Part shown: positions 1-25,093 of the stretch, one piece after another
Layout of the letters: each line of letters starts with the position of its first letter
Position numbering within the stretch: position 1 is the first letter of the stretch
NCBI GenBank assembly: GCA_903923925.1
Contig: CAIXZF010000035.1
Span: 558,001-622,000, forward strand
Origin: an uncultured Bacteroidales bacterium
Lineage (GTDB): Bacteria > Bacteroidota > Bacteroidia > Bacteroidales > CAIXZF01
Reading direction: 5' to 3'
DNA length: 64,000 bases
Program-made: the position numbers and the translations under genes
The notes under the pieces: generated by a model
The model's input: only the letters and a program-made list of their open reading frames with translations
Database searches by the model: none
Told to the model about the DNA's origin: nothing

Positions 1-550
1 TCAGTTGCAGGAGTTGGTACTCATACAATTACATACAGCTACATGTCGAATGGTTGTAATGGTACAGCAACAAAAACCATTGTAGTTAATCCTTTACCAG
101 TTGTTGAGTGGACAACGGCATTGACTCCACAGTGTGTGATTGCAACAACTTATGTTTTATCCGGAGCAACACCGGCAGGTGGAACGTATTCCGGAACAGG
201 GGTTACAGGAACCAACTTCAATGCTTCAATTGCTGGTGTTGGTACAAAAACGATAACCTATACTTATACAAATGGAAATGGGTGTAGCAATACTAAGACA
301 AACACGATTACTGTTTATGCATTACCCACTGTTAGCTGGTCAAACACACTGACAGCACAATGTGTTAGTTCAGCAACATATGCTCTTACCGGTGGTTTGC
401 CTGCTGGTGGTACATATTCCGGGACAGGAGTTACTGGTACTAACTTTAATGCAAGTGTTGCTGGTATGGGAACTTTCACCCTAACATATTCATACAGTGA
501 TGCAAATGGGTGTTCTGGTTCAACAACCAATCAAATAACTGTTCATCAAC
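1..550 (+). repeat. Tandem 228-bp coding repeats
   Basis: The phrase AGGTYSGTGVTGTNFNAS occurs at about bases 175 and 403, exactly 228 bp (76 codons) apart. The sequence at base 1 (SVAGVGTHTITYSY) is the tail of a further copy that begins upstream. The copies differ at many third-codon positions, so they are old, selected protein repeats and not a recent DNA expansion. Each unit carries one conserved cysteine after PQ/AQ and one in the NGC motif. Confidence 0.85.
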
Positions 551-2343
551 CACCAACCGCTAATGCTGGAACTGATCAGACTATAACACTTGGCAATTCT
601 GCAACACTCTCAGCCATTGCAACAGGCGGAAGTTCTCCGTATTCGTATTCTTGGGGAATTGGATTGAATACCCAAAGTATTATTGTAACTCCAACTTCAA
701 CAACAACCTATTCTGTAACTGTTACAGATGCTTTTGCCTGCGCGGGTACTGATGAAGTTGTTGTAAATGTAACTCCATTACCATCTGTTCTAACAACAAC
801 TGCGCCAACAAATACTGCTTGTCCGGGTGAAATTATTGTTCCAGTATCAGTTTCTAACTTTTCAGGTGTTGCTGCAATTTCACTAAAATTATCGTATGAC
901 AATGCTATTCTAACGTATACCGGATATCAAAATGCACATGCCTCTCTGGCATCCGGAGTTCTGATCATTAATGCGACCAATTCTAAAGTACAAGTTGCAT
1001 GGTTTAGTATTTCTCCTGCTACAATCGGAAATGGAAAGTTATTTGATATAAAATTTACCGGTATAATAGGCGAAAGTTCACTTATCTGGAATATTGTTAA
1101 TCCGGGAGATTGTGAATATAAGGATTTTAACAGCATTACAATTCCTGCGGATTTTGTTAATGGGTTTGTTACAATCGGAAATTGCTCAAACCTGGAAGGT
1201 AACATGACCTACGACAACACCGTTTCTACTCCTATGAATAATAGTACAGCTCTGCTAAAGCAAGGTGCTAACACAGTGTACCAGGTAACTACAGACATTT
1301 CTGGTCACTTTCTGTTTGCTAACCTTGCTAATGGTTTGTACACTACTGCTGGCGCTTCATCAAAAGCATGGGGTGGTGTAAATGCATCTGATGCACTGGT
1401 TATTCTGAAATACTTCGTGGGTCAGACTACATTAACCGGAATCAGACTTGCAGCTGGTGATGTTGATGGATCGGGCTATGTTAATTCTTCCGATGCCTTG
1501 TCTGCAGCTAAACGTTTCATAGGGATAACAAATTCATTCCCGGTTGGTGACTGGGTTTTTGAAAAATTTAGTGTTCAGATAAACGGTACAGGTAATGTTA
1601 CGCAAAACATGAAGTCATTGGTTTTTGGAGATGTTGATGGTAGTTATATACCTGGAGCAAAAACAGAACCTGCAATTTATTTAGAGAACGACAGAACTAT
1701 AAGTATTACCGGGAAATCGGACATTGACATCCCTGTACGCATTAAAAATAATTCTGAAGTTGGTTCAATTTCCCTTGTATTGGATATTCCGGATCCTTCT
1801 CTAAAGGTTAAAGATGTTTTTACCAATAGCAAAGGGAATATAGTCTTCCAACAGGATGGAAGCAGTCTGAGAATTGCCTGGTATAGTTTAATACCAATGC
1901 AACTCAAAGAAGACGATATCCTTCTTACAGTGAAGTGTTCAACAGTCGATCCTGATTTATCCCAAAATAGTCTTTGGACAGTAGATCCTGTCAGCCAGAT
2001 TACTGATGCAAATGCCAAACCCTATGAGAATCTTCGTTTGACAATGCCAAAGCTTACCACTGTAAGTGATCAGTTTTATCTCAGTCAGAATGCGCCGAAT
2101 CCATTCTCAGATGCCACAGAAATCTCTTATTACCTACCCGAAAGAGGAACAGTTAGCCTGGTAATCAGCGACCTGCTTGGACGAAGGGTGATGACAATGG
2201 TAAATACGATGCAGGATACAGGCTTGCATAAAGCCAGTGTTCACGCAAGTACCCTGTTGCCGGGGATTTATACCTACACACTTCTTGTCAATGGAGAAAC
2301 TAAGGAGTTCACAAAAACTCTAAAAATGATTATTGAACGGTAA
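1..2343 (+). CDS. Large T9SS-secreted repeat protein with PKD, cohesin-like and dockerin-like domains (5' end missing)
   Basis: The reading frame is open from base 1, so the gene starts upstream of the window; 780 residues are visible. In order: tandem 76-residue beta-rich repeats (to about residue 185), a PKD-like domain (about 190-265), a cohesin-like beta-sandwich (about 267-400), a dockerin-like module with the calcium-loop pattern AGDVDGSGYVNSSDAL (about 400-555), a second cohesin-like segment (about 560-685) and a type A T9SS sorting domain starting at FYLSQNAPNPFSDATEI. The C-terminal domain implies outer-membrane translocation by T9SS and cell-surface attachment or release. The family (SprB/adhesin-like repeat proteins) serves adhesion or gliding; the specific role here is unknown. 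The dockerin-like module is closely matched in the protein at 23351. A strong terminator follows the stop codon. Domain calls are from motif reading; the T9SS call is firm, the cohesin call is moderate. Confidence 0.85.
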   Translation, partial: SVAGVGTHTITYSYMSNGCNGTATKTIVVNPLPVVEWTTALTPQCVIATTYVLSGATPAGGTYSGTGVTGTNFNASIAGVGTKTITYTYTNGNGCSNTKTNTITVYALPTVSWSNTLTAQCVSSATYALTGGLPAGGTYSGTGVTGTNFNASVAGMGTFTLTYSYSDANGCSGSTTNQITVHQPPTANAGTDQTITLGNSATLSAIATGGSSPYSYSWGIGLNTQSIIVTPTSTTTYSVTVTDAFACAGTDEVVVNVTPLPSVLTTTAPTNTACPGEIIVPVSVSNFSGVAAISLKLSYDNAILTYTGYQNAHASLASGVLIINATNSKVQVAWFSISPATIGNGKLFDIKFTGIIGESSLIWNIVNPGDCEYKDFNSITIPADFVNGFVTIGNCSNLEGNMTYDNTVSTPMNNSTALLKQGANTVYQVTTDISGHFLFANLANGLYTTAGASSKAWGGVNASDALVILKYFVGQTTLTGIRLAAGDVDGSGYVNSSDALSAAKRFIGITNSFPVGDWVFEKFSVQINGTGNVTQNMKSLVFGDVDGSYIPGAKTEPAIYLENDRTISITGKSDIDIPVRIKNNSEVGSISLVLDIPDPSLKVKDVFTNSKGNIVFQQDGSSLRIAWYSLIPMQLKEDDILLTVKCSTVDPDLSQNSLWTVDPVSQITDANAKPYENLRLTMPKLTTVSDQFYLSQNAPNPFSDATEISYYLPERGTVSLVISDLLGRRVMTMVNTMQDTGLHKASVHASTLLPGIYTYTLLVNGETKEFTKTLKMIIER

Positions 2344-2476: not shown

Positions 2477-3433
2477 TTATTTTTTCCTCCCAATTGATTT
2501 CATCGCAGCCTCAACAATATGCGGTGTATCCAACCCATATTTGGTGAGAAGTTCCATGGGTTTACCACTTTCGCCAAAGGAATCATTAACGGCAATCATT
2601 TCTATCGGAGCCGGGAAATGCATTCCTAAAACCTGAGCAATACTATCTCCCAAGCCACCATTTCTTTCGTGCTCTTCGGCAGTAACAACACAGCCTGTCT
2701 TTTGTACACTTTGAATAATAGCTTGAATATCAAGAGGTTTAATGGTATGGATGTTTATTACTTCTGCATTAATCCCATTTTCCTGAAGCGTATTTGCAGC
2801 CTCCAGTGCCGGCCAAACAAGATGTCCACAGGCAAAGATACTTACATCAGTTCCTTCTTTGAGTATTTGAGCTTTCCCGATTACGAATGCTTCTTCAAGT
2901 CGTGTAAAGTTGGGCATTTTGGGCCTGCCAAAACGCAGATAAACTGGTCCATTATAATTAGCAATGGCTTGTGTAGCCAGGAAAGTCTGATTGTAATCAC
3001 AGGGAACAATCACCGTCATATTGGGTAACATTTTCATTAACCCGATATCTTCCAGAATCTGGTGTGTAGCACCATCTTCGCCCAGAGTCAGTCCGGCATG
3101 TGATGCACAGATCTTTACATTTTTAGTTGAATAGGCAACAGATTGTCTTATCTGGTCATAAACCCTGCCAGTCGAGAAGTTTGCAAAAGTTCCTGTAAAG
3201 GGGATTTGTCCGCCAATTGTCATTCCTGCAGCTATGCTTATCATATTAGCCTCGGAAATACCAACCTGTATAAATCTTTCAGGGTAGGCATGGGCAAAAG
3301 CATCCATACGAAGAGATTCACAAAGATCGGCGGTAAGCGCTACAACTTTAGGATTTTTCTTTCCTAATTCAAGTAAAGCCGCTCCAAATCCGGCACGGGT
3401 TTCTTTCTGGTCTTGTATCTTATAAGGGGTCAT
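2477..3433 (-). CDS. Transketolase, C-terminal subunit (pyrimidine-binding and C-terminal domains)
   Basis: This 318-residue protein is the C-terminal half of a split transketolase. It covers the pyrimidine-binding domain (about 10-170), with the catalytic glutamate in GISEANM and the conserved HAGLTLGEDGATHQ segment, followed by the transketolase C domain (about 185-310). With the N-terminal subunit encoded at 4918-5754 it should form a heteromeric thiamine-diphosphate enzyme moving two-carbon units between sugar phosphates in the non-oxidative pentose phosphate pathway. Full-length transketolase is about 650 residues; the two halves together give about 600. The gene is the last of a three-gene minus-strand run and starts 17 bases after the vWA gene. 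A DXP-synthase-like role is less likely because the ketolase GEDGATHQ pattern is intact. Confidence 0.9.
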   Translation of the reverse strand: MTPYKIQDQKETRAGFGAALLELGKKNPKVVALTADLCESLRMDAFAHAYPERFIQVGISEANMISIAAGMTIGGQIPFTGTFANFSTGRVYDQIRQSVAYSTKNVKICASHAGLTLGEDGATHQILEDIGLMKMLPNMTVIVPCDYNQTFLATQAIANYNGPVYLRFGRPKMPNFTRLEEAFVIGKAQILKEGTDVSIFACGHLVWPALEAANTLQENGINAEVINIHTIKPLDIQAIIQSVQKTGCVVTAEEHERNGGLGDSIAQVLGMHFPAPIEMIAVNDSFGESGKPMELLTKYGLDTPHIVEAAMKSIGRKK

Positions 3434-3450
3434 AATTGATAAACTCAGGT

Positions 3451-4872
3451 TTATTTTTCGTAAAGTTTTACATTTGAAGTACTTCCGGAATCGATAGTAA
3501 ACGTCTTTTCAATAGTATAAACTGATTTGTCTGAAAACTTAGAGCGAAATACTGCCCTGTATCTGCCAGGCTGAAGGATTATTGTTTCTGAATTTGTAGG
3601 TGTATCGCGGAAGTTATAAATCCATCGCATTTGATTGTCTTCCAGGATATATAAGCTTCCAAAACCATTGGTCGACTTCTGAATTACTGCTATTCCGGGT
3701 GATGGTATTTCAACCGTAGTAGTATGACTTTGCAGAATTTCCACATCGTTGATCTTTAGTCTCGGTAAACACAGTACTTCGAGATCATAATTGCCGGTAA
3801 TATACTTTTCCGTTACATTAAACGATTGAACATTTATAGTATTCATATCACCTTTTTGCCTTATAATGCAAGGGAGGTTCTTTGTTATTGAACTGCTACC
3901 GCTTATTTTCAGGTTAAGCATTCCCTGTGGCGCGTCAATCGGTATAATTGTATGTTTTCCTGGAGTCAATTGTACAATGCTGGCCTGAACGGGTGGAATA
4001 GTGTGAACTACTATGTTGTAGGTCATTAAAGGATCTATATACAAAGTATCGGGTAAGCCACTGCTGTTAAAAGTGTGAATAAAATTGTATTTAACCATAC
4101 CTGAGAAACTATCGTAGAAAGTCATATTCACATTCGTTTCGGTAGGATTTTTACTATCGTCGAGCAGATTAACCTGTGCAGTGGTTGAATTAAGTGCCTG
4201 AGATATTACAATATTAAGTGCTTTACTGAAAGCTTCTTCATTTGATGCATCGTAATAGGTGCCAACGCAATTAAACGCATTCTGAAAATCTTTTCCGATG
4301 CCAATAATAAAAGGTTTAAGAATAATGCCTTGCTTTTGAAGGGCACTGGAAACTGCACAGGGATCACCATCGCACTCTTCTAAACCATCTGTAATAAGTA
4401 CAATTATGTTTCTGCAGTTATCACAGGGGGTAAAATCAGATGAAGCTTTTTCAAGGGAAGCCGCTATTGGTGTTGTCCCTTTTGGAACCAACGATTTCAG
4501 TACATGCTTGATTTTCTTTATATTACCCGGTGCAAATGGAACTTCCAATTTTGTATCATCACAATCCTGTGGAGGGAAATTCTTCTGATGACCGTAAACT
4601 CTCAATGCAAGCTGTAGATTATCAACCTTATAAAGTGAATCAAGGAGATTTGAGAGCAACTTTTGTGCGATATTAATTTTTATATCGCTCTGCCATCTGC
4701 CATACATACTTTGAGAGGCATCAAAAACGAATAAAATTCGGGTTAAAGGTTTAGGCTTTTCTTTCTCCTGAATTTTTTGTGCATGGAGCGTACCTGTAAA
4801 AATAAAAGCAATAATCAGGATAAATATTCCTGAAATTGCACCCTTGTATAATGTTTTATTCTTGAATTCCAA
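3451..4872 (-). CDS. Secreted or periplasmic von Willebrand factor A domain protein
   Basis: The 473-residue protein has an N-terminal hydrophobic segment (about 12-31) ending in TLHAQ, which reads as a cleavable signal peptide. A vWA domain (about 43-230) follows with a complete metal-ion-dependent adhesion site: DASQSM, the threonine in KGTTPI, and TDGLEE. Several cysteine pairs (CDD, CDNC, CDGDPC) may form disulfides. The C-terminal half is beta-rich without a recognised family. No T9SS sorting domain is visible. It lies between the two transketolase subunit genes (45 and 17 bases), which suggests co-transcription, although an exported vWA protein has no obvious role with a cytoplasmic enzyme. 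The vWA call is firm; partner and function are unknown. Confidence 0.85.
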   Translation of the reverse strand: MEFKNKTLYKGAISGIFILIIAFIFTGTLHAQKIQEKEKPKPLTRILFVFDASQSMYGRWQSDIKINIAQKLLSNLLDSLYKVDNLQLALRVYGHQKNFPPQDCDDTKLEVPFAPGNIKKIKHVLKSLVPKGTTPIAASLEKASSDFTPCDNCRNIIVLITDGLEECDGDPCAVSSALQKQGIILKPFIIGIGKDFQNAFNCVGTYYDASNEEAFSKALNIVISQALNSTTAQVNLLDDSKNPTETNVNMTFYDSFSGMVKYNFIHTFNSSGLPDTLYIDPLMTYNIVVHTIPPVQASIVQLTPGKHTIIPIDAPQGMLNLKISGSSSITKNLPCIIRQKGDMNTINVQSFNVTEKYITGNYDLEVLCLPRLKINDVEILQSHTTTVEIPSPGIAVIQKSTNGFGSLYILEDNQMRWIYNFRDTPTNSETIILQPGRYRAVFRSKFSDKSVYTIEKTFTIDSGSTSNVKLYEK

Positions 4873-4917
4873 TATGTTAACCTTAGAACTTAGATAAATA
4901 TCTATCTGATTCCCCGA

Positions 4918-5754
4918 CTAATAATCACCAAGTGTTTCAGCAAGCTGTGACAGTGCTCTTTCTGTTTGTTCTGCATTGGGTGCTGAGCCATGCCATTTAT
5001 GTGTACCCATCATAAAATCAACTCCCATTCCCATCTCAGTATGCATCAGGATAACAATTGGTTTTCCTTTTCCAGTATTTTCTCCGGCAGTTTTCATGGT
5101 CGAAAGAATATCAGGTATAATGTTGCCATTCATTTCATATACCTGCCATCCAAAAGCTTCCCATTTTGCATGAAGATCACCTAATGAAATAACAGAATCG
5201 GTAGGGCCATCAATTTGTTTTTTATTGTAATCAACTGTAATAATCAGATTATCAACTTTATGAGAAGCTGCGAACAATGCTGCTTCCCAGATCTGCCCTT
5301 CCTGAAGTTCACCATCGCCAGTTAATACATAAACCAATTTGTCATCACTATTCATCTTTTTTGAAAGTGCAGCTCCAATTCCAACAGAAATACCTTGTCC
5401 CAGTGAGCCTGATGCCATTCGTATACCAGGTAGCCCATCATGAGTACAAGGATGCCCCTGAAGTCGTGTGCCCATTTTTCGGAATGTGGCCAGTTCTTTT
5501 ACTTCAAAGAAACCTGCATGAGCAAGTATGCTATACCATGCTGCTGAAACGTGACCATTCGACAGAAAAAATAAATCTTCGCCAAAACCATCCATTGTAA
5601 ATTGGTCGGGCTTATACCTTAAAATGTCGAAATAAAGGGCGGTAAAAAAATCGGCACAGCCCAGAGAACCACCGGGATGACCGGATTGAACGTCAGACAC
5701 CATGCGGATTATGTCTCTTCTTACCTGAGACGAAATATTCTCAAGATTATGCAT
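4918..5754 (-). CDS. Transketolase, N-terminal (thiamine diphosphate binding) subunit
   Basis: This is the N-terminal half of transketolase, with SGHPGGSLGCAD, LSNGH, the ASGSLGQG loop and the thiamine-diphosphate motif GDGELQEGQ ending at DYNKKQ. It pairs with the C-terminal subunit at 2477-3433. The start was placed at the second methionine (5754, MHNLENISSQ) instead of the first in-frame ATG (5772), because a TACTTTTG promoter element lies only two bases upstream of 5772, which would place transcription start inside the longer form. The protein from this start is about 278 residues. The gene heads a run of three genes. Function is firm; the exact start is inferred. Confidence 0.88.
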   Translation of the reverse strand: MHNLENISSQVRRDIIRMVSDVQSGHPGGSLGCADFFTALYFDILRYKPDQFTMDGFGEDLFFLSNGHVSAAWYSILAHAGFFEVKELATFRKMGTRLQGHPCTHDGLPGIRMASGSLGQGISVGIGAALSKKMNSDDKLVYVLTGDGELQEGQIWEAALFAASHKVDNLIITVDYNKKQIDGPTDSVISLGDLHAKWEAFGWQVYEMNGNIIPDILSTMKTAGENTGKGKPIVILMHTEMGMGVDFMMGTHKWHGSAPNAEQTERALSQLAETLGDY

Positions 5755-5773
5755 AATCAATATGTTATGCATG

Positions 5774-23350: not shown

Positions 23351-25093
23351 ATGAAAAAATTAGTACTTATTTTTCTGGGCTTTGTTATGTTAACTGCTCA
23401 TTGCCAGATCACAATTGACAGAAATGATATGCCGAACATTGGTGATACTATCAGAAGGTCAATTGTCTATTCAGTAAATGGTCTGGATTTCAACCTTTCA
23501 GGTGTTAACCATGTCTGGGATTTTTCATCACTTGGAAGAACAAGCCAGAAAGTTGAATCATTTTTTAATCCATCTGTAACTCCAACTGTTTATCAATTGG
23601 CTTTTAATCTGCCATTTGATCCAAACAGAGCTACTATTTGCAACCCTCAGTCTGAATTCGATACTTTGACAAGTATCTCCCTTACAAATACATACAGTTT
23701 TTTCAGAGAGTCAAGTTCTGTTTTCTCCTTCTTGGGTATGGGAGCAACTCTAAATAATGTGCCCTTGACTATTAAATATAATAATCCGGATGTTCTTTAT
23801 CGCTTTCCTCTGACAATGGGTGCAACGGATTCTTCAACTTCATCTTTCAGCTTGAATTTATCAGGAACAGGATATCTTGCTACAAGTCGCCACAGAGTTA
23901 ACCACATTGATGGATGGGGTTCTCTAACAACACCACTTGGCACTTTTAATACTGTTAGAGTAAAATCCATTGTAACTGAATTAGATAGTGTTTATATTGA
24001 TTCTCTTCAGGTTGGAGTTCCCATTAACAGATACTATACAGAATATAAGTGGCTTGGGGACAATGCAGGATTGCCTTTGCTTGAGATAACTGAAGAAGGA
24101 ACAACGATTACAGTCAAATACAAGGATATTTACCATGTACCTGTTGTCGCCTCTTTACCGATTAATCAACAAATCTGCAGAGGTGAATCTGTTCAGTTAT
24201 CAGTTATTGCAAACGGTGGTACACCACCGTACACATATTTGTGGGTAAATGGAGATACTTCCGCAACAATAAATGCCAATCCTTTAATAAGTATGGCATA
24301 TTCTGTTGTTGTAACTGATGCTTTTGGTGAAACAGATGGTGTTTCAACATTTATTACTGTCCATCAATTGCCTCAGGTAAGTTGTGGAAATGATACGACA
24401 ATATTTGCAGGTAATTCTGTGCAGTTTTTTGCTCAGGTAACAGGGGGGAACCCACCTTACAATTATTTTTGGTTTCCGGATACCGGGTTGAATAATAGTA
24501 ACATTTCGAATCCGGTTGCATTTCCTTATGGAAATATATCCTATAATTTAGTCGTATCAGATTCAAATAGTTGTGTAGGAAGGGACACAATTGAAATTAC
24601 TGTAATTCAGAATAATCATAGCGTAAGTGGTTCTTTAACCTATGATAATGCATCATCAACAGAAATGGCGAATGTAACTGTATATCTCAAAAATGCCAAT
24701 AATGTAGTAATTCAACAATGTATTACCAATAGTACAGGTGAATTCACACTCTCAGGAATACAGGATGGAAATTATTCTCTTGATGCTTTTTGTACTAAAG
24801 CATGGGGAGGATGCAATGCAACAGATGCGTTGCTTATTCTTACTTATTTTACAGGAACAAGCACATTATCAGGGCTGAGACTTAAAGCAGGCGATTCAGA
24901 TAATTCGGGTTATGTTAATTCGGTAGATGCCTTGTTAGTGGCAAAGCGATTTGTTGGAATTCAGAACTATTTCCCTGCTGGTGATTGGGTTTTTGAGAAA
25001 CATTTGATTGCTGTATCAGGCAGTAATATTACGATAAATCTTAAAGGCTTATGCGTTGGTGAAGTTGATGGAAGTTATATTCCACAGAACTAG
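23351..25093 (+). CDS. Secreted PKD protein with a C-terminal dockerin-like module
   Basis: The protein is 580 residues from the ATG at 23351, chosen over an upstream TTG (23321) because MKKLVLIFLGFVMLTAHCQ is a complete signal peptide. A beta-rich N-terminal domain of unknown family (about 20-265) is followed by two PKD-like domains (about 270-350 and 350-430) and a dockerin-like module (about 435-580) with WGGCNATDALLILTYF and AGDSDNSGYVNSVDALLVAK. This last module aligns along its length with that of the protein at 1-2343, including GDWVFEK and VDGSYIP. Unlike that protein, it has no T9SS sorting domain and stops directly after the module. How it is retained at the cell surface is not shown by the sequence. 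Confidence 0.82.
   Translation: MKKLVLIFLGFVMLTAHCQITIDRNDMPNIGDTIRRSIVYSVNGLDFNLSGVNHVWDFSSLGRTSQKVESFFNPSVTPTVYQLAFNLPFDPNRATICNPQSEFDTLTSISLTNTYSFFRESSSVFSFLGMGATLNNVPLTIKYNNPDVLYRFPLTMGATDSSTSSFSLNLSGTGYLATSRHRVNHIDGWGSLTTPLGTFNTVRVKSIVTELDSVYIDSLQVGVPINRYYTEYKWLGDNAGLPLLEITEEGTTITVKYKDIYHVPVVASLPINQQICRGESVQLSVIANGGTPPYTYLWVNGDTSATINANPLISMAYSVVVTDAFGETDGVSTFITVHQLPQVSCGNDTTIFAGNSVQFFAQVTGGNPPYNYFWFPDTGLNNSNISNPVAFPYGNISYNLVVSDSNSCVGRDTIEITVIQNNHSVSGSLTYDNASSTEMANVTVYLKNANNVVIQQCITNSTGEFTLSGIQDGNYSLDAFCTKAWGGCNATDALLILTYFTGTSTLSGLRLKAGDSDNSGYVNSVDALLVAKRFVGIQNYFPAGDWVFEKHLIAVSGSNITINLKGLCVGEVDGSYIPQN

Follow-up and report, generated by a model that had tools for sequence, protein, structure and literature searches.

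The protein encoded at 23351–25093 of the analysed DNA (the window, 64,000 nucleotides from an uncultured Bacteroidales bacterium) ends in a dockerin-like module, and it is fairly probable, judging from sequence, that permuted-dockerin proteins of this kind, which carry no sorting signal, are held on the cell surface by the cohesins of T9SS-sorted proteins. Taken together, the proteins with a terminal module and the sorted cohesin proteins point to a putative cellulosome-like surface assembly.

Two window proteins with a common module

The features of the two module-bearing genes of the window are listed in Table 1. The module of the 23351–25093 protein (24605–25090) recurs in the protein encoded at 1–2343, as the initial annotation had noticed: BLASTP aligned the two proteins over 161 columns with 53% identity (164 bits, E 4e-47), and the alignment spans the motifs named there, including GDWVFEK and VDGSYIP. 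The sharing is not a matter of chance, but the two proteins do not form a private pair, since 62 module matches occur in the own genome of the window (G000; 4.6 Mb, 117 contigs). The protein at 1–2343 is a T9SS protein as described, but hardly the "giant" it was taken for, its whole frame (G000:C35:556447-560340) encoding 1298 aa and other module-bearing frames reaching up to 5621 aa.

Table 1. Window positions of the features of the two module-bearing genes
Feature	Positions	Strand	Basis or remark
C-terminal 780 aa of the 1298-aa T9SS protein	1..2343	+	bears the same module
First cohesin (C)	781..1176	+	Pfam and fold
Module in the T9SS protein	1189..1653	+	BLASTP match to the 23351–25093 protein
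Second cohesin-like domain (c), lying between module and tail	1660..2055	+	profile 169-260 against cohesin 2xdh, E 1.7e-6
T9SS type A sorting domain	2065..2340	+	TIGR04183, 27.0 bits, cut-off 23
Gene ending in the module	23351..25093	+	580 aa, ATG at 23351
Sec-type signal peptide, about 18 aa	23351..23404	+	heuristic; cleavage site by eye
N-terminal domain, function unassigned	23405..24136	+	other matches bear a T9SS tail
Two Ig/PKD-like domains	24137..24610	+	Ig_3 7e-8; PKD_4 0.0075, under its cut-off
Module, first strands of a CnaB/transthyretin-like sandwich	24620..24787	+	predicted structure
Dockerin core, running from the second half of calcium loop 1 through helices 1 and 2 and the complete loop 2 to helix 3	24788..24958	+	
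Module, closing sandwich strands	24959..25057	+	predicted structure
C-terminal end, GEVDGSYIPQN, put forward as the first half of calcium loop 1	25058..25090	+	consensus GDVNGSYIP

The 1–2343 protein matches both the Pfam Cohesin (PF00963; 31.0 bits, cut-off 24.1) and Dockerin_1 (PF00404; 27.3 bits, cut-off 22.9) families. Its C-module-c region was predicted with a mean pLDDT of 95.2 and a pTM of 0.83, the latter suggesting a fixed arrangement of the domains. In the predicted model, C has a clear cohesin fold (6kgd_A, Z 18.1, rmsd 1.9, 132 residues), which bears out the cohesin-like domain of the initial annotation. The best Foldseek matches of C-module-c are the Clostridium thermocellum scaffoldin chains 4fl4 and 3kcp, with a TMq of 0.27, meaning that one domain superposes and not the whole. 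Since the protein's own dockerin sits between two cohesin-like domains, its cohesins may be used in cis.

For the 23351–25093 protein the Dockerin_1 score was 22.4 bits, just below the Pfam cut-off of 22.9, and 27.3 bits for the core alone. Neither the TIGR04183 scan nor a custom tail profile found a T9SS tail in it, and nothing qualifying as a C-terminal sorting domain was identified; the assignment of the sorting domain to the 1–2343 protein alone was thus correct. A lipid anchor, raised earlier as another possible means of surface retention, was also looked for: the signal peptide is of the Sec type and, by a simple motif test, contains no lipobox, because His precedes Cys. Between the two genes, at 2477–5772 of the window, lie two genes that, by reading, resemble transketolase halves, with a von Willebrand A-like gene between them.

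Dockerin core and split calcium loop

The module of the 23351–25093 protein was predicted with a mean pLDDT of 95.1 and comprises strands at 5–62, helices at 72–82, 90–96 and 106–116, and strands at 128–150. Its fold-search matches are sandwich domains, with 78 to 99 residues aligned over roughly residues 3 to 151 of the model; for instance, 79 of the 82 residues of 3e8v align over 5..150. Some 65 module residues are skipped in these alignments, which fits the dockerin core, and by inference from the first and last aligned residues only, the core appears to be inserted in a CnaB/transthyretin-like sandwich. No dockerin chain stands among the listed fold-search matches of the module alone, a list filled by the sandwich part, and its absence there is no evidence against a dockerin. 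By profile, PDB chains named dockerin match the module with E-values down to 6.8e-7; profile and calcium-loop residues together uphold the earlier description of the module as dockerin-like.

The loop residues were counted in 150 modules of the own genome and a sister genome (G001), a set that leaves out the C113 fragment, C16 (missed by the profile), one cut G001 row and one G001 copy of less than 130 aa. All five ligand-type residues of calcium loop 2 are present in 132/150 modules. The second half of calcium loop 1 was found in 146/150 and its own first half in none (0/150); D-x-D/N-x-S or near equivalents stand at the C-terminal end of 146/150. The same picture was obtained from wider sources (62 rows, two of them from the window): 61 rows have the second half of loop 1, none has the loop's own first half, and 61 have the half at the C-terminal end. 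Position 153 is D in 149/150 modules, the 23351–25093 copy being the sole one with E. The consensus reads GDVNGS in the tail, GGVNATDAL in loop 1 and ADVDGSGYVNSIDAL in loop 2.

Moving the tail in front of the core increased the Dockerin_1 score in 8/8 modules, by 5.3–15.6 bits. The gain was 11.6–13.7 bits in five chosen modules, 10.4 and 15.6 bits in two random ones, and smallest in the 23351–25093 copy (5.3 bits, from 27.3 to 32.6), which has E for D. Shuffled tails, one per module, gained 0.2–4.6 bits, the 4.6 bits coming from a shuffle that kept the GDV run. By these counts and scores, the half-loops stand in the order of a circularly permuted dockerin. The canonical tandem order of two calcium-loop/helix repeats that defines PF00404 is absent from the module, which is filed here, on its sequence, as a permuted dockerin variant and not as a canonical PF00404 member. 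In the proposed structure the dockerin core would sit in the sandwich, and loop 1 would be rebuilt from the halves before helix 1 and at the C-terminal end, closing in space and probably binding calcium.

Helix positions 80, 81, 114 and 115 presumably correspond to the cohesin-recognising positions of canonical dockerins. K, R or Q occupies position 80 in 136/150 modules and position 114 in 145/150, H is found at 81 in 124/150 and R at 115 in 137/150, and the putative recognition positions are alike in both repeats.

Module position, sorting tails and cohesins

Architectures were read on fetched regions with our own profiles for the module, cohesins and tail. A T9SS tail follows 34/61 classed modules of the own genome, with c between module and tail in 32 (C35_95117 and C35_505524 are tailed without it). 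Another 22/61 modules, including that of the 23351–25093 protein, are terminal, at 0–5 aa from the stop, a FISUMP domain follows 4/61 (TIGR02145 was confirmed in the two scanned), and 1/61 is a fragment. The sister genome has at least 96 module matches, 89 of which were used for fetching regions; of the 92 modules read there, 47 precede a tail (45 with c), 32 are terminal, 10 precede a FISUMP domain (one by reading), two continue for about 40 aa past the module (the 150-module set treats them as terminal) and one is cut. Cohesin matches number 40 in the own genome, 30 of them over the Pfam cut-off, and 16 over the cut-off in the sister genome. In the FISUMP proteins, including L066:6429-7601, L070:6574-7839, L061 and L084, the module lies toward the N-terminal side and there is no T9SS tail.

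These two genomes belong to the same family. A module match was detected in 8/40 relatives searched (own included), with 1 to 4 matches each besides the own and sister genomes. Of two other bins, reached through loci, a Lentimicrobiaceae bin holds 29 matches and RA.bin61 holds 40, so the expansion of the module is not limited to one family.

Signal peptides were found, by heuristic, in 21/22 terminal-module proteins of the own genome. A Pfam scan of 21 of them (L092:5136-5762 was left out) identified M14 and C25 peptidases, a heparinase-II/III-like protein and a metallophosphatase protein as enzymes, and GEVED, BACON, PKD, cohesin or beta-helix domains in others; no glycoside hydrolase family was listed in these 21 of 22 proteins. 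Several exported enzymes of this genome, as far as the signal-peptide heuristic goes, therefore end in the dockerin-like module. Dockerin_1 scored over its cut-off in 11/20 other terminal proteins scanned. Four terminal-module genes, two of them nearly identical in the module, lie on one strand within about 8 kb at G001 C31:62065-80746 (L218).

Frameshift or truncation was considered as a cause of the terminal position and rejected for 53/54 terminal cases, which have no in-frame c-tail remnant just past the stop. The exception, G001 C19:10956, has c and tail in frame right after the stop, perhaps as a broken gene. In six other terminal cases a match was seen past the stop, which by position looks like an adjacent gene. 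On a tree of the 150 modules the three labels are clustered yet intermixed, requiring 31 changes versus 56.6 after shuffling; the changes forced by starred branches number 4, 5 and 2 in the respective classes, and no finer conclusion is drawn from the tree.

Homologues of two terminal proteins allow a comparison of their C-termini. A search of 395 Bacteroidota genomes gave 15 other matches to the N-terminal domain of the 23351–25093 protein (E up to 1e-5, several of them weak, with E to 5.7e-6), and a T9SS tail was found in 15/15 of these frames with our own profile (weakest 13.5 bits). Two of the tailed homologues are encoded in the own genome (C42:60883, 42% identical, and C116:5617), and the G001 orthologue (L203, E 3.5e-98) ends in the module. 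Among the M14 peptidase homologues, 15/17 are tailed, one has no tail and one has a cut frame; the gene adjoining the module-ending M14 peptidase, on the same strand and 60% identical, is tailed. Judged by these homologues, the module occupies the position of the sorting tail in both families, a comparison made among the homologues of two families. The C25 peptidase has only two distant homologues and is uninformative in this respect. At G000 C51:56614-63337 (L269), the gene after that of a module-ending C25 peptidase is C25-like, related to it and T9SS-tailed.

The C-terminal position, the beta-sandwich part and the swap with the tail would also suit a module that acts, in place of the type A tail, as a T9SS sorting signal in its own right. 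This is the least probable of the explanations considered here: the module precedes a complete tail in 34/61 cases, where such a signal would be redundant, and FISUMP domains in 4/61, where it would be out of place, and by profile it is dockerin-like.

Binding within one chain was considered as well. The c domain starts about 12 aa after the module in many tailed copies, and c (or C) could form a rigid stalk by clasping the module of its own chain; a terminal module would then bind either a cohesin located upstream in its chain or nothing at all. A cohesin is indeed present in the chain of 4/22 terminal proteins (C25_30182, C45_4270, C70_44552 and C107_56184) and of 4/32 in G001. However, profiles detected no in-chain cohesin in 18/22 terminal proteins of the own genome and 28/32 of G001. 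Moreover, 10 of 154 positions are class-specific at p 0.005 or less, by statistics that ignore kinship, and the ten highest-scoring class-differing positions all lie outside the dockerin helices, as if the same binding face were kept in both classes. We therefore regard cis binding as a highly unlikely account of the terminal modules.

Potential partners with several cohesins are encoded in the own genome. The frame at C35:370744-387606 (5621 aa) contains ten cohesins, a module, c and a tail, and several-cohesin proteins are also encoded by frames of C78, C36 and C68. Five cohesin genes are clustered at C35:356000-396000 (L076, L077 and L086), and G001 C23:267516-298545 looks like the counterpart of this cluster. 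The locus L114 (CAIOZA010000052.1), from a bin labelled Ignavibacteria, has domain positions and rounded scores equal to those of G000 C57:44184, which suggests that its contig, although binned elsewhere, derives from the window's organism or a near relative.

The survey of co-occurrence suggested by the initial annotation favours a pairing of module and cohesin. With the threshold for a strong module match set at E up to 1e-25 once the table had been seen, 11/395 sampled genomes, own included, have such a match; a cohesin match occurs in 11/11 of them, compared with 128/395 overall (hypergeometric 3e-6, genomes being taken as independent). In these phylum-wide searches the best 9 or 10 candidates were scored per genome, and copy numbers are lower bounds. 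A cohesin-like domain is present in the module's own frame, too, in 8/10 non-own strong genomes, so the co-occurrence is partly that of one gene. A separate adjoining gene with cohesins was found in 6/10 (G095, G106, G110, G040, G311 and G389); in five of them it is T9SS-tailed, and in G095 its frame is cut. G393 has a cut adjoining frame with one cohesin of 28 bits, in G057 and G078 cohesins occur in the module's own frame only, and in G331 no cohesin of weight was found near the module gene. In G040 and G041 (Ignavibacteriales record of L140), a cohesin gene comes after the genes of two tail-less module proteins, the set being DMFA2_C-module, CotH-module and a cohesin-3 SdrD_B protein; the tail of the latter is present in G040, and its frame runs off the contig in G041. 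The whole genomes have one (G040) and two (G041) cohesin matches.

Among genomes with weaker module matches, cohesins were found in 15/32 (p 0.054). Of the 17 without a cohesin match, 16 belong to the genus g99 and the last to the same family, and for another g99 genome a cohesin match but no module match was obtained; these g99 counts cover the listed genomes, those without a match being listed in part. The weak dockerin-like matches of the 16 g99 genomes, which have no Pfam cohesin match, often lie in large frames and suggest either a diverged partner or another use.

Such matches would agree with a module that is only a structural calcium-binding stalk unit, the terminal proteins being free in the periplasm or released, and so would the prediction of module and c as one well-ordered unit (pTM 0.83). 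We consider this unlikely, given that the module is terminal in 22/27 tail-less copies (22 terminal, 4 FISUMP, 1 fragment) and occupies the place of the homologues' sorting tail, that cohesin genes adjoin it in 6/10 genomes, and that K/R is kept at matching positions of both repeats.

Proposed docking and known systems

In the preferred reading, that of surface docking, the 23351–25093 protein would use Sec for export, having no sorting signal itself, and its terminal module would dock in trans on the cohesins of T9SS-sorted proteins, some of them with many cohesins and the 1–2343 protein being one candidate among them, either in the periplasm with joint export or after another export route. 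Cohesin binding, surface location and outer-membrane crossing are what we infer for the terminal proteins as a group. Besides the g99 genomes and the 15/32 count among weaker matches, three points count against this scheme. Sec-exported proteins without a T9SS signal are expected to stay periplasmic; a cohesin-like domain directly follows the module in most tailed copies, so that binding could be in cis; and the retention of the tail-less FISUMP proteins (4 here, 10 in G001) is left unexplained by docking. SprA is present in 4/4 genomes tested. It is conceivable, albeit rather doubtful, that tail-less proteins bind a tail-bearing cohesin protein in the periplasm and cross the SprA translocon together with it, a hitchhiker secretion in which, if true, one sorting tail would export and anchor several partners. 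With the sorting tail replaced by a dockerin, the route of tail-less proteins to the T9SS surface becomes testable.

The scaffoldin of the CipA type in C. thermocellum is composed of cohesins, an X module and a dockerin. The system proposed here resembles the C. thermocellum cellulosome in the cohesin fold, in proteins with several cohesins and in the dockerin at the C-terminus of exported enzymes. It differs in that the anchor is a T9SS tail, the dockerin is permuted and nested in a sandwich domain, and the cargo named by Pfam consists of peptidases, a phosphatase and a lyase-like protein. The archaeal non-cellulosomal cohesin 2xdh of Archaeoglobus fulgidus is similar to C by structure and to c by sequence profile, whereas the cohesin-bearing protein here, unlike 2xdh, is T9SS-sorted. 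The sandwich part of the module is like CnaB/SdrD B and carboxypeptidase regulatory-like domains; unlike in CnaB/SdrD B domains, the sandwich here would be interrupted by a dockerin core, as deduced from the predicted model.

For Ca. Stygibacter (Cloacimonadota), it was proposed in 2021 that enzymes carry dockerins and that a cohesin scaffold has an attachment domain at its C-terminus (PMC8542988), which, as far as the accessible part of that source goes, is a system of the same cellulosome-like kind in another phylum. In bins of rumen Bacteroidetes, dockerin domains were counted and cohesins noted in certain species in 2018 (PMC6071333); the accessible part of that paper draws no link to T9SS sorting, a tail swap or loop permutation. 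Two cellulolytic soil Bacteroidetes are said, in the part of the source available, to be without dockerin and scaffoldin proteins (PMC6247017), and in the accessible text of a 2024 genomic survey of cellulosome bacteria "Bacteroid-" occurs in the reference list only (PMC11557425). No description of a natural permuted dockerin or of a tail-to-dockerin swap was found in the open-licence literature, mostly at the level of its listings. Designed assemblies would gain a new part in a naturally permuted dockerin, in which closure of the loop would depend on the C-terminal end folding back. Dockerin/cohesin systems as a kind are known, and the present one is set apart from them by its permuted dockerin, by the tail swap and by its scale.
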